This document shows positions 10,700-13,406 of a DNA stretch of 23,104 bases, one piece after another. The notes beneath the pieces are model-generated. The model was given only the letters and a program-made list of their open reading frames with translations, was not told the origin of the DNA and ran no database searches. The stretch comes from a virus. The stretch's first letter is position 1. Each line of letters begins with the position of its first letter. A program made the translations under genes and the position numbers. The DNA is taken from positions 1 through 23,104 of the IMG/VR virus record IMGVR_UViG_3300048527_000010; one strand, written 5' to 3'.

Positions 10700-11212
10700 T
10701 CAGGCGGCCATGTTGCCGGCCACGGACGCCACCTCTGTGACACGGCGGCTCCAGCCTTTGCCGAATGTGTCCCAGTTCTGCAAGTCCATCAAGAACGACA
10801 GGCGGCGCTTGTTGTAGTCCTCAACCAGGTCAGCGGGGCCAAATCCAGCCACGGCAGCCAGCGTCTTGGGGCCAATACCGCCATCGGGCTCAACGCCAAC
10901 GCAGGCCTGCAACCACTTGGCCGCACGGCCTGGACCGCTGTTGACGGCCGCGTCAAACACGGCGTAGTCCACGCCAGCCGGTAGATCGTCGCCTTTGATC
11001 TTGTCCCAGTATTTGGCCTTGTACATGGGGCCAACAATCTCGGGTGTCAGTGCGCGCATGGCCTTCTCGTCAACCTCGTGGCCAACCCACTCCTCCCAAA
11101 CCTTCTTGGTCACGCCAAGGTTGGTCATGCCGCCGGGGTCGGCAGGGTGGTTCACAAAGCCGCCTTCGTGATGCAAAACGGCTTTGAGCGCGGATTCGAA
11201 GTTGTCTTTCAT
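10700..11212 (-). CDS. Endolysin, glycoside hydrolase family 108 type
   Basis: This 170-aa enzyme should cleave the glycan strands of peptidoglycan (N-acetylmuramidase activity in characterised relatives). The N-terminal catalytic domain shows HHEGGFVNHPADPGGMTNLG (residues 14-33), the family hallmark; Glu16 in EGG is the expected catalytic acid. The C-terminal part has a peptidoglycan-binding segment of the family-108 partner type (WLQACVGVEPDGGIGPKTL, about 100-118). No signal peptide or signal-anchor is visible, so release depends on the holin. The start overlaps the holin stop as ATGA, making a coupled holin-endolysin pair. Length is usual for the family. Confidence 0.93.
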   Translation of the reverse strand: MKDNFESALKAVLHHEGGFVNHPADPGGMTNLGVTKKVWEEWVGHEVDEKAMRALTPEIVGPMYKAKYWDKIKGDDLPAGVDYAVFDAAVNSGPGRAAKWLQACVGVEPDGGIGPKTLAAVAGFGPADLVEDYNKRRLSFLMDLQNWDTFGKGWSRRVTEVASVAGNMAA

Positions 11213-11673
11213 TTCATGTCCTTAAGTTTCTGGATTTCACTGCCCTTGTCTTTGGAGCCTTGGGAACTTCCACGGTGGAAGTTCAGCACGGTGCCGGACA
11301 TGGTGATGAGAGAGCCGAGGGCCATGTAGACCAGCTCTTTATTCTGCTCGGGCACGCCTTTGATGAATGCAAACCACGCCAAGAAGATGGTGGCAGCAAC
11401 GATTCCAACGTCCAAAGCATAGGCGGTGTTTTTGGCCAGCCACGATGCCTCTGTGGACTCCTGAATCTTAGCGTTCATGTCCCGCGCGCTGTCGGTGTTG
11501 GCGTTGCTCAACTCGACCAGCTTGGTGTCGTTGGCCATTTGAGCCAATTCGCCGTTCTGCTGCATCTGCGCCAACTCTTGCTTTGCGGCTGCGGCGGCTG
11601 CCGGGTCAGGCAGGAAACGGTCGATCAGTTTTCCGCCAATAGCAGCCAGTGGGTTCAAGTCACTTAGGTTCAT
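11209..11673 (-). CDS. Holin, 3TM/GTA-holin-like family
   Basis: This 154-aa membrane protein has an N-terminal amphipathic segment with AIGGKLIDRFLPDP (about 10-24), a charged Ala/Gln helix (25-80), and two clear hydrophobic segments (about 84-104 and 112-132). A basic tail with RGSSQGSKDK (134-143) follows. The GSS-GSK tail after the last hydrophobic helix and the LIDRFLPDP start are typical of the 3TM holin family known from gene transfer agents and many phages. I chose ATG 11673 because it overlaps the previous stop as TGATG; an in-frame ATG at 11883 would add 70 residues overlapping the previous gene. Directly upstream of the endolysin, it should form the membrane lesion that releases the enzyme. 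Confidence 0.88.
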   Translation of the reverse strand: MNLSDLNPLAAIGGKLIDRFLPDPAAAAAAKQELAQMQQNGELAQMANDTKLVELSNANTDSARDMNAKIQESTEASWLAKNTAYALDVGIVAATIFLAWFAFIKGVPEQNKELVYMALGSLITMSGTVLNFHRGSSQGSKDKGSEIQKLKDMK

Positions 11674-12290
11674 CAGTTGCCCCTTTTGGTTAGCATAGCG
11701 CTGGCGATCTCCAGCATGAATTTCACCTGTTCTAAGCTCTCGGGCTGTTGCGCCCAACCAACAGTGATCTGGCCAACAAAGCGATGACTGTCTGGCGGCA
11801 CGCTGACTCGGCAGGTGTAGCCGACGCCCTTCTCGATGTACCACAGGCCAACCTCGGACTGGGCGTAGCGGTACTCGCTGCACGGAATCTGGTTGGTCAT
11901 CAGGGCGATCACGTCGTTGTTGTTTCCTGAGTTCTGGCTAAACAGACCAACGTCGATGTCCTCAATGCTCTTGTCCCGGCCGTCCTTGGTGTACGCCTTG
12001 TGCAGCACGCGGCTGTTGAACAAGGGGTTGACCTTGAACACGGCCACCACCGTTGCGCCCGTCTTTTTGAAAAGCATGGTGGAGGCCTCGTCAACCCGGC
12101 CAACATTGATCTCGGGCAGCTTCTTGGACTCCTTGTAGGCGTCGCGCATGAACTCTTGGTTCTGCCACAGGAAGTAGCCGGTGAACGCCACCACGCCCAT
12201 GATGAGGATGGCAAACAGCTTGAACGGCGAGTCCACATACCCGAGCACCTTGTCGAGGGTGGAGTTGGCATTTAGCTTATCGTCGCTCAT
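11673..12290 (-). CDS. Membrane-anchored protein of unknown function in the lysis block
   Basis: This 205-aa protein has one transmembrane helix near the N-terminus (about 23-42, FKLFAILIMGVVAFTGYFLW), preceded by a short polar tail. A soluble domain of about 155 residues follows. The domain contains a KVNPLFNSR segment, two cysteines (in IPCSEY and YTCRVSVPP) and a GQITVGW strand; the folding pattern recalls GAF-like alpha/beta domains but I cannot confirm it. Orientation could put the domain in the periplasm, where the two Cys could pair, or in the cytoplasm. It is coupled upstream by ATGA and downstream to the holin by TGATG, so it is expressed with the lysis genes. An inner-membrane spanin, antiholin or signal-sensing role is possible, but none is shown. 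Confidence 0.8.
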   Translation of the reverse strand: MSDDKLNANSTLDKVLGYVDSPFKLFAILIMGVVAFTGYFLWQNQEFMRDAYKESKKLPEINVGRVDEASTMLFKKTGATVVAVFKVNPLFNSRVLHKAYTKDGRDKSIEDIDVGLFSQNSGNNNDVIALMTNQIPCSEYRYAQSEVGLWYIEKGVGYTCRVSVPPDSHRFVGQITVGWAQQPESLEQVKFMLEIASAMLTKRGN

Positions 12291-12733
12291 CGCAGGTGCT
12301 TCACATACAAGACGATGCCGTAGCCTATCAAGGCCGCCAGAATCACGGTGGCGACCCCCACGGCTATGTACTCGGACCAGCGATCAATTGCCCGCTTGCG
12401 CAAAACGATGCGGCGTGCTTCGGCCTCCTTAGCCTCACGACGACGCCTGGCTGCGGCGGCCTGGAATTTAACCCAGTCCTCCCACATGCCAGGGCGGCCG
12501 GCGTAGACCATCGACTCGCGCAGGTGTTCTTCCTGCTGCCTGAGCTGCTCCAGCGCCATGAATTCTTCCATGTCGGAGCCGCCACCCTTCTTGGTGGCTT
12601 TTTCCTGAATCTTGGCCTTGTTGTCAAAGTAGTCGAACACCCGAGACCCAAGCGCAGACAGCTCTTTTCCGTTGGCCAGCGCCGCCTTGATGACATTAAA
12701 AGCCGCGTTGGCAGCGGCGAGCTCTGCAATCAT
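12287..12733 (-). CDS. C-terminally anchored basic membrane protein, lysis block
   Basis: This 148-aa protein has an Ala-rich N-terminal helix (1-30), a charged linker, a conserved-looking YAGRPGMWEDWVKFQ patch (77-91), a strongly basic helix (ARRRREAKEAEARRIVLRKR, about 95-114) and one transmembrane helix near the C-terminus (about 122-144). Such tail-anchored topology leaves the bulk in the cytoplasm. I recall proteins with the AGRPG-W motif from other phage genomes next to lysis genes, always uncharacterised. Its start overlaps the stop of a 31-aa membrane gene (ATGA) and its stop overlaps the start of the 205-aa membrane gene (ATGA). A holin partner or regulator is a reasonable guess only. 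Confidence 0.8.
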   Translation of the reverse strand: MIAELAAANAAFNVIKAALANGKELSALGSRVFDYFDNKAKIQEKATKKGGGSDMEEFMALEQLRQQEEHLRESMVYAGRPGMWEDWVKFQAAAARRRREAKEAEARRIVLRKRAIDRWSEYIAVGVATVILAALIGYGIVLYVKHLR

Positions 12734-12825
12734 CTCAGCACCTCAATCAGGGTCTTGGTTGTCCAAATAACAATGCCAACAATCAAAATTGCCGCGACAA
12801 GAGCCTCGGCAAAGTCTCTCATCAT
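12730..12825 (-). CDS. 31-aa single-helix membrane microprotein
   Basis: ATG at 12825 opens a 31-codon frame ending in TGA at 12730-12732. The product starts MMRDFAEAL and ends KTLIEVLR; the centre (about 8-22, ALVAAILIVGIVIWT) is a single hydrophobic helix. Both ends are coupled: its ATG overlaps the stop of the 106-aa gene (ATGA, 12822-12825) and its stop overlaps the ATG of the 148-aa gene (ATGA, 12730-12733). It fills the only gap in the coupled chain exactly, which a random frame would rarely do. A second ATG at codon 2 could also serve. By size it could be a pinholin-like, antiholin-like or holin-modulating peptide; function is unknown. Confidence 0.7.
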   Translation of the reverse strand: MMRDFAEALVAAILIVGIVIWTTKTLIEVLR

Positions 12826-13142
12826 GCAGCCCAGGGCAGTGCAGGCGTTACCACTGGCGGGTTGATCTGGTTTTGGATTTGCTGCTCAACAGCGGCCTCT
12901 GTGGCGTCTTTGTCCACGCCGTTGGCCCAAATCCAGCCCAGCACTTGTTCTTGCGTCAGGTCGGCGTAGGGTGTGAAGCCGGAGCCTGTTGGGGCTGGCA
13001 GTGAGCATGTGGAGTACACCGAGGCAGTGTAGGCGTCTTGCACACCGGAGCATGTCCAGTGGGCATTGAACACCACATCAGTTTCGTTGTCGGCCTGTGG
13101 GTAGCAGTCCATTGCGGTAATTGTCCAGTTGATTGTCGTCAT
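12822..13142 (-). CDS. Small conserved-type phage protein, DUF7936-like
   Basis: This 106-aa protein starts MTTINWTITAMDCYP and contains VVFNAHWTCSG, a TASVYSTCSLP segment, then FTPYADLTQEQVLGWIW and a helical C-terminus. I recognise the layout from small phage proteins coded next to tail fibres, which I recall being grouped as DUF7936; the assignment is from memory. Three cysteines (13, 31 and 46) are present and no membrane helix. An AAGGA site six bases before the ATG supports the start. It lies 9 bases after the VanZ/YfiM-like gene and overlaps the 31-aa gene. It may be a fibre accessory or structural protein rather than a lysis protein. Confidence 0.8.
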   Translation of the reverse strand: MTTINWTITAMDCYPQADNETDVVFNAHWTCSGVQDAYTASVYSTCSLPAPTGSGFTPYADLTQEQVLGWIWANGVDKDATEAAVEQQIQNQINPPVVTPALPWAA

Positions 13143-13151
13143 GGTGAGTCC

Positions 13152-13406
13152 TTAAAAGTGAGAGCAATAAAAACCCAGAGCGCCACCAGCCGATGTGACC
13201 AGAGCGTCCCAGATGTCAGGGGTGTGATTTTCTTTGTTCAAAGCGTCATAGAGTTCCTTGATGAACCCTGCAACAACCGATAAAGCAAAGGCGTACTGAG
13301 GGCCAGTGAACGGCAAGAACACAGCGAACAGGATGACCCCGGCAGCAAAGTGGAGGGCTTTGTCAGCGGGGATGCTGTTCAGGCGTGTGAGGACTTGATC
13401 GATCAT
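13152..13406 (-). CDS. Small multi-helix membrane protein, VanZ/YfiM-like
   Basis: This 84-aa protein has hydrophobic segments at about 17-32, 37-50 and 66-82. Motifs DKALHFAAG (15-23), KELYDALNK (50-58) and D...ALVTSAGGALG (64-78) match the pattern DK-HF...KE-YD...D---GG--G of the small YfiM/VanZ-related membrane proteins. Their function in phages is not established; holin-like or envelope roles have been suggested by position only. The start overlaps the S74 fibre stop as ATGA, so it is translated from the fibre message. It leads into the lysis block. Confidence 0.8.
   Translation of the reverse strand: MIDQVLTRLNSIPADKALHFAAGVILFAVFLPFTGPQYAFALSVVAGFIKELYDALNKENHTPDIWDALVTSAGGALGFYCSHF

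Follow-up and report, generated by a model that had tools for sequence, protein, structure and literature searches.

A gene of only 30 codons in the lysis block of a virus appears to encode a membrane peptide that helps to control host lysis. This gene, here called the mini-gene, lies in a 23,104-nucleotide stretch of viral DNA (IMG/VR record IMGVR_UViG_3300048527_000010; hereafter the window). Patterns of substitution among its relatives indicate that the mini-gene is real and translated, and that its peptide is under strong purifying selection. The mini-protein is most likely an inner-membrane lysis micro-protein that tunes the holin or holins of its cassette, either as an accessory factor or as an antiholin-like regulator, a reading to which we assign a probability of about 0.45. 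The location of the gene suggests that its product probably acts in the timing or assembly of lysis holes. Hundreds of freshwater phages keep a mini-gene beside the genes used to burst their hosts.

The mini-gene reading frame and its start codon

The window carries a minus-strand frame that runs from an ATG at position 12825 to a TGA at 12730, as reported in the initial annotation, and this frame is joined to both of its neighbors by ATGA overlaps. At the 5′ end, the ATG at 12825 overlaps the TGA of the upstream gene, and at the 3′ end the stop codon of the mini-gene overlaps the ATG of the next gene at 12733. Among the 54 ATG-started frames of 25 to 40 codons on both strands of the window, the mini-gene alone has a 19-residue hydrophobicity of at least 2.0 (its value is 2.25), which agrees with the original description of a short, single-helix membrane gene within the lysis block.

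The length of 31 residues first given for the product is probably one residue too long. A near-identical relative (L085, on the same contig as L001) has only the second ATG and reads ...GCCTAATGAGAGAC (CCTAATGAGAGAC), with the first ATG missing. Because of this relative, and because M[KR]D[WF] is the consensus start of the family, we prefer the start at 12822. The mini-protein is thus likely to have 30 residues, and the window could use either ATG. A lambda-style dual start (S107 type) from the two ATGs was ruled out by the missing first ATG in L085. The mini-gene is an independent gene, not the dual-start product of a holin gene as expected for one type of antiholin.

The mini-gene had also been said to close the only gap in a chain of coupled genes. 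This is not the case, as gaps of 9 nt (13152/13142) and 17 nt (11673/11655) remain. On the minus strand at 13152-13406, the window encodes a membrane protein of 84 aa that weakly resembles VanZ and whose gene is directly coupled to an S74 tail-fibre gene.

Table 1. Features of the lysis block, in window coordinates
Feature	Position	Strand	Description	Evidence
Upstream gene	12822..13142	(-)	106 aa, DUF7936	Pfam PF25590, E 1.6e-28
Alternative upstream ATG (31-aa form)	12823..12825	(-)	ATGA overlap with TGA of upstream gene	Absent in L085
Mini-gene, preferred start	12730..12822	(-)	30 aa, MRDFAEALVAAILIVGIVIWTTKTLIEVLR, single membrane helix	Family alignment, L085 comparison, dN/dS 0.20
Hydrophobic helix codons	12757..12810	(-)	Residues 5-22; small A/S7, A10, A11, G16 and W20 conserved	Column counts, 19-residue hydropathy 2.25
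Shine-Dalgarno site of 148-aa gene	12739..12744	(-)	GAGGTG, inside mini-gene codons E27-V28	5 nt before P148 ATG
P148, downstream gene	12287..12733	(-)	148 aa, helical with C-terminal membrane helix	phrog_32327, no assigned function
P205	11673..12290	(-)	205 aa, N-terminal membrane helix and GAF-like domain (predicted)	AlphaFold2 pLDDT 79; Foldseek and VIA top match T4 holin T
3TM-holin-like gene	11209..11655	(-)	148 aa	PF11351 E 3.8e-5, just under Pfam cut-off; phrog_3427 holin E 2.5e-7
Endolysin	10700..11212	(-)	GH108 N-acetylmuramidase	PF05838 E 8.2e-29; phrog_315 endolysin

A conserved peptide family

Viral contigs were searched with the downstream 148-residue protein (P148), and the region before P148 was inspected in 80 loci. 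The initial annotation proposed a check for a coupled short frame at the same place in relatives, and this check was positive: 59 of the 80 loci encode a protein of 30 to 35 residues in this slot. Disrupted frames, which were named there as evidence against the gene, were encountered as one truncated remnant, and 20 further loci have no copy at all. The remnant (L026) lies just before the P148 start and is truncated at its 5′ side, with the 3′ half and end retained (KIGPVLWCIYIYWWIYV). Because 21 of the 80 loci lack an intact copy, we conclude that the mini-gene is dispensable in some lineages. When searches with the mini family itself were added, the total rose to at least 205 loci in at least 162 distinct contexts.

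To assess selection, dN/dS was computed over codons 3-24, a range that leaves out the overlap as well as the codons of the ribosome site. The value was 0.20 (bootstrap 95% 0.16-0.24) for 70 independent pairs, compared to approximately 1.0 for randomly placed changes, and there is a third-position excess (304 versus 163 and 73). In the alignment, columns A10, A11, and W20 are near-invariant, residue 16 is nearly always small (G16), and position 7 is always small (A/S). The low dN/dS together with these conserved residues leads us to conclude that the frame is translated and its peptide selected. The hydrophobic helix is therefore conserved at the amino acid level, as the initial annotation required of a genuine gene.

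The mini-protein yielded no significant match in Pfam, PHROGs, or NCBIfam, including matches to known holin families, and no model in these libraries covers the family. A search of isolate phages with the mini-protein from the window likewise gave no match, and the same search with the W-type consensus returned one homologous record, MW202710.1, in which the mini-gene relative UOF80813.1 is a GenBank hypothetical protein. When 84,980 species genomes were searched with the mini family, pattern matches were obtained but none were confirmed, a test weakened by the short query. The proposal that annotation overlooks this gene is thus largely correct, except that the relative in MW202710.1 had been annotated. 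The family has been seen almost exclusively in metagenomic viruses, and the libraries we searched contain no model of it, so that routine annotation will mostly overlook it.

Coupling of the mini-gene to its neighbors

The overlaps seen in the window are conserved in relatives, in agreement with the coupling first described. An overlap of -4 (ATGA) with the upstream stop is present in 118 of 159 contexts, and the spacing to the downstream start is -4 in 54, -11 in 28, and -1 in 22 of approximately 158 contexts. The match to a ribosome site of the mini-gene's own spans 3 nt or fewer in 126 of 162 contexts, and this near absence suggests that expression is modest. In 122 of 155 contexts, the mini-gene contains the whole ribosome site of the next gene, and codon choice is biased where this site resides: E27 is GAG in 107 of 112 cases, and V28 is GTG in 81 of 101 cases, versus 120 of 803 valines elsewhere. 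Because codon choice is constrained in this way, the last codons have a double purpose. The geometry of the overlaps suggests that ribosomes ending the upstream gene could re-initiate at the overlapping ATG of the mini-gene. Those ribosomes would then meet a strong site in its last codons and may proceed into the 148-residue gene.

Two explanations would deny the peptide any function of its own. The frame might be suspected to have arisen by chance and to yield no product because it is short and has no database family, but this is exceedingly improbable given a protein conserved in 162 contexts, and it is rejected by the selection test and opposed by the third-position excess. A leader frame, whose translation serves to open the P148 ribosome site while the peptide is incidental, is in keeping with the GAGGTG-type site found within the frame in most relatives, with the biased codons at E27 and V28, and with the truncated remnant that retains the 3′ end. 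Even so, we judge it very unlikely because the low dN/dS was obtained with the site excluded, near-invariant residues lie in the N-terminal half, and the mini-gene is retained where another gene replaces P148. Duty as a ribosome site accounts in part for the conservation of E27-V28, but not for that of the helix.

The lysis neighborhood

P148 is the next gene in 139 of the 158 contexts with a called downstream gene, and a Foldseek search with this protein found unnamed phage proteins only. Among the 115 contexts that extend 3.3 kb or more downstream, an endolysin cluster is found near the mini-gene in 109 and a 3TM-holin-like cluster in 95. The accompanying endolysins belong to four unrelated families (GH24, GH19, GH108, and M15). 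The mini-gene has no single holin family as its constant companion; nearly all cassettes for which sufficient sequence is available encode one or more other candidate holins of the 3TM-like, 2TM, or T-like type.

In 116 of 159 contexts, the gene immediately preceding the mini-gene encodes a coiled-coil membrane protein of 59-77 residues, and this arrangement rules out a strict swap of one for the other. The coiled-coil protein has no significant Pfam match, XhlA included. Its slot (e.g., in L118, L152, and L168) holds three unrelated-looking families with one membrane helix each.

In another group of loci (L121, L127-L129, and L141), the mini-gene directly precedes a GH108 endolysin gene that is followed by a 3TM holin gene. 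Because the mini-gene is retained in these cassettes without P148, P205, or the coiled-coil gene, we conclude that it tracks the lysis function and not any single neighbor. The compact cassette in L121 (3669-5017), L127, L129, and L141 reads DUF7936, mini-gene, GH108 endolysin, and 3TM holin, and the SU10-type adaptor gene known from the window comes after it.

A cassette in a Rhodoferax MAG (JAURGS010000011.1, L230 3278-5038) has a coiled-coil gene, a P148 relative, a holin-like gene, and GH108, with no mini-gene, and it hints at Burkholderiales hosts. Since this cassette and some P148 loci exist without an intact copy, lysis does not require the mini-gene. The steady partnership of the mini-gene with lysis genes offers a simple genetic handle on the timing of multi-gene lysis cassettes in uncultured phages.

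P205, a candidate T4-T-like holin

The initial annotation placed a holin two genes downstream of the mini-gene. The gene at this position encodes P205, and one gene separates it from the endolysin gene. Its AlphaFold2 model (pLDDT 79) has a single N-terminal helix of membrane-spanning length and a GAF-like domain, the predicted combination that characterizes class III holins of the T4 T type. With both Foldseek and VIA, the T4 holin T periplasmic domain is the top PDB match (Z 13.6, 3.0 A, 130 residues). Generic GAF domains come to within one Z unit of T4 T, however, and the fold by itself therefore lacks specificity. At the sequence level, no similarity to T4 T was detected (hhalign probability 2.4%), and P205 has no name in Pfam, PHROGs, or NCBIfam.

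Phages of Edwardsiella, Cronobacter, Vibrio, and Citrobacter encode relatives of P205, most of which carry a hypothetical-protein annotation. The relative in Edwardsiella phage GF-2 lies between antiterminator Q and lysozyme, directly before the lysozyme gene, which provides the endolysin adjacency expected of a holin. The slot between Q and lysozyme is the usual holin location in lambdoid phages. On the basis of the modeled fold and this gene order, P205 is a probable class III holin candidate of the T4 T type, and the placement of a holin at this position is supported. Study of the mini-gene thereby exposes a holin candidate that is currently annotated as function unknown. Because the mini-gene is also present in cassettes that have no T-like gene, it is unlikely to be a regulator dedicated to the T-like holin alone.

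Function of the mini-protein

The initial annotation proposed a pinholin, an antiholin, or a regulator of the downstream holin. We favor a regulator or accessory factor of the holin step because other holin candidates are nearly always present, some lineages do without the gene, and its expression signals seem modest. The mini-protein would insert in the membrane as a single helix, and this helix could pack via its small face (A/S7, A10, A11, and G16) against itself or against another membrane protein of the cassette. In this manner, it may tune when or how the cassette holin or holins open. Counting against a holin regulator are the 21 P148 loci and the Rhodoferax MAG cassette that have no intact mini-gene, as well as the variety of holin families beside it. 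Likewise, a location in the late operon would also suit accessory genes unrelated to lysis.

This last consideration leads to an unlikely alternative, in which the mini-protein is a membrane effector with no part in lysis that might, for example, exclude superinfecting phages or inhibit a membrane protein of the host. Many phage micro-proteins target host proteins (reviewed in PMC11323111), the slot adjoins tail-fibre genes, and the loss of the gene is patchy. However, an accessory gene without ties to lysis should move about among loci, whereas the mini-gene remains beside lysis genes that span four endolysin families and several types of holin, and is retained in lysis cassettes that lack the other downstream genes of the window. 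A hole-forming role, in which the mini-protein would oligomerize and depolarize the membrane as a tiny holin or pinholin, is doubtful to a slightly greater degree. A lone hydrophobic helix, conserved in small residues along one face, would fit such a role, as would the usual holin position directly before the endolysin gene in the L121 group. Yet that same group has a 3TM holin after the endolysin, nearly every other cassette likewise has another holin candidate, some relatives dispense with the gene, and the near absence of its own ribosome-binding site suggests modest expression. To return to the favored regulatory role, we speculate, at rather low odds, that the family is a dedicated lysis-timing subunit for varied holins (T-like, 3TM, and 2TM), often with the coiled-coil protein and P148, and thus part of a modular holin control complex in freshwater phages.

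Comparison with known systems

By predicted hydropathy (2.25) and by the endolysin in 109 of 115 contexts, the mini-protein resembles a holin in being a small integral membrane protein of a lysis cassette. The S21 pinholin has two helices, whereas the mini-protein has 30-35 residues with one hydrophobic stretch. The resemblance to the T4 pair RI and T is that the cassette in the window encodes a predicted T-like holin, which could be under the control of a membrane partner. The predicted architecture of P205 matches that described for T4 T, which consists of a short cytoplasmic segment, one helix, and a periplasmic domain (PMC11413866, PMC12162936). In contrast, RI-type antiholins combine an N-terminal hydrophobic segment with a periplasmic domain, and the mini-protein has no residues left for such a domain.

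Two further phage systems can be likened to the mini-gene and its cassette. Phage N4 uses the lysis regulator gp62 with the pinholin gp63, and thus has a second small membrane protein that modulates a holin (PMC12642591), although gp62 is approximately three times longer than the mini-protein. Gordonia phage lysis cassettes carry several proteins of 1-4 helices beside the endolysin, with holin, antiholin, and timer roles undivided among them (PMC9671378). The cassette in the window similarly has several small membrane proteins, but the Gordonia phages have actinobacterial hosts. Outside of phages, bacterial proteins of the YohP type (27 aa) undergo SRP insertion and dimerize through small residues (PMC7549839). 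They resemble the mini-protein as single helices of fewer than 35 residues, but are cellular and stress-related, and we claim no homology.

The closest counterpart is UOF80813.1 from Caudoviricetes sp. isolate ctnlZ23 (MW202710.1), a homologous protein of 30 aa (MKDWLLSFMAAASLIGLTIWTVKIMIEVLK) encoded in the same slot. Downstream of its gene are those for a P148 relative, a 50-aa protein, a holin-like protein, and a lysozyme. This record differs from the window in that a coiled-coil membrane gene, not DUF7936, lies directly upstream, and in that the endolysin is GH24. The mini-family is a new and well-conserved family of a known kind, the small single-helix proteins of lysis cassettes (PMC9671378).
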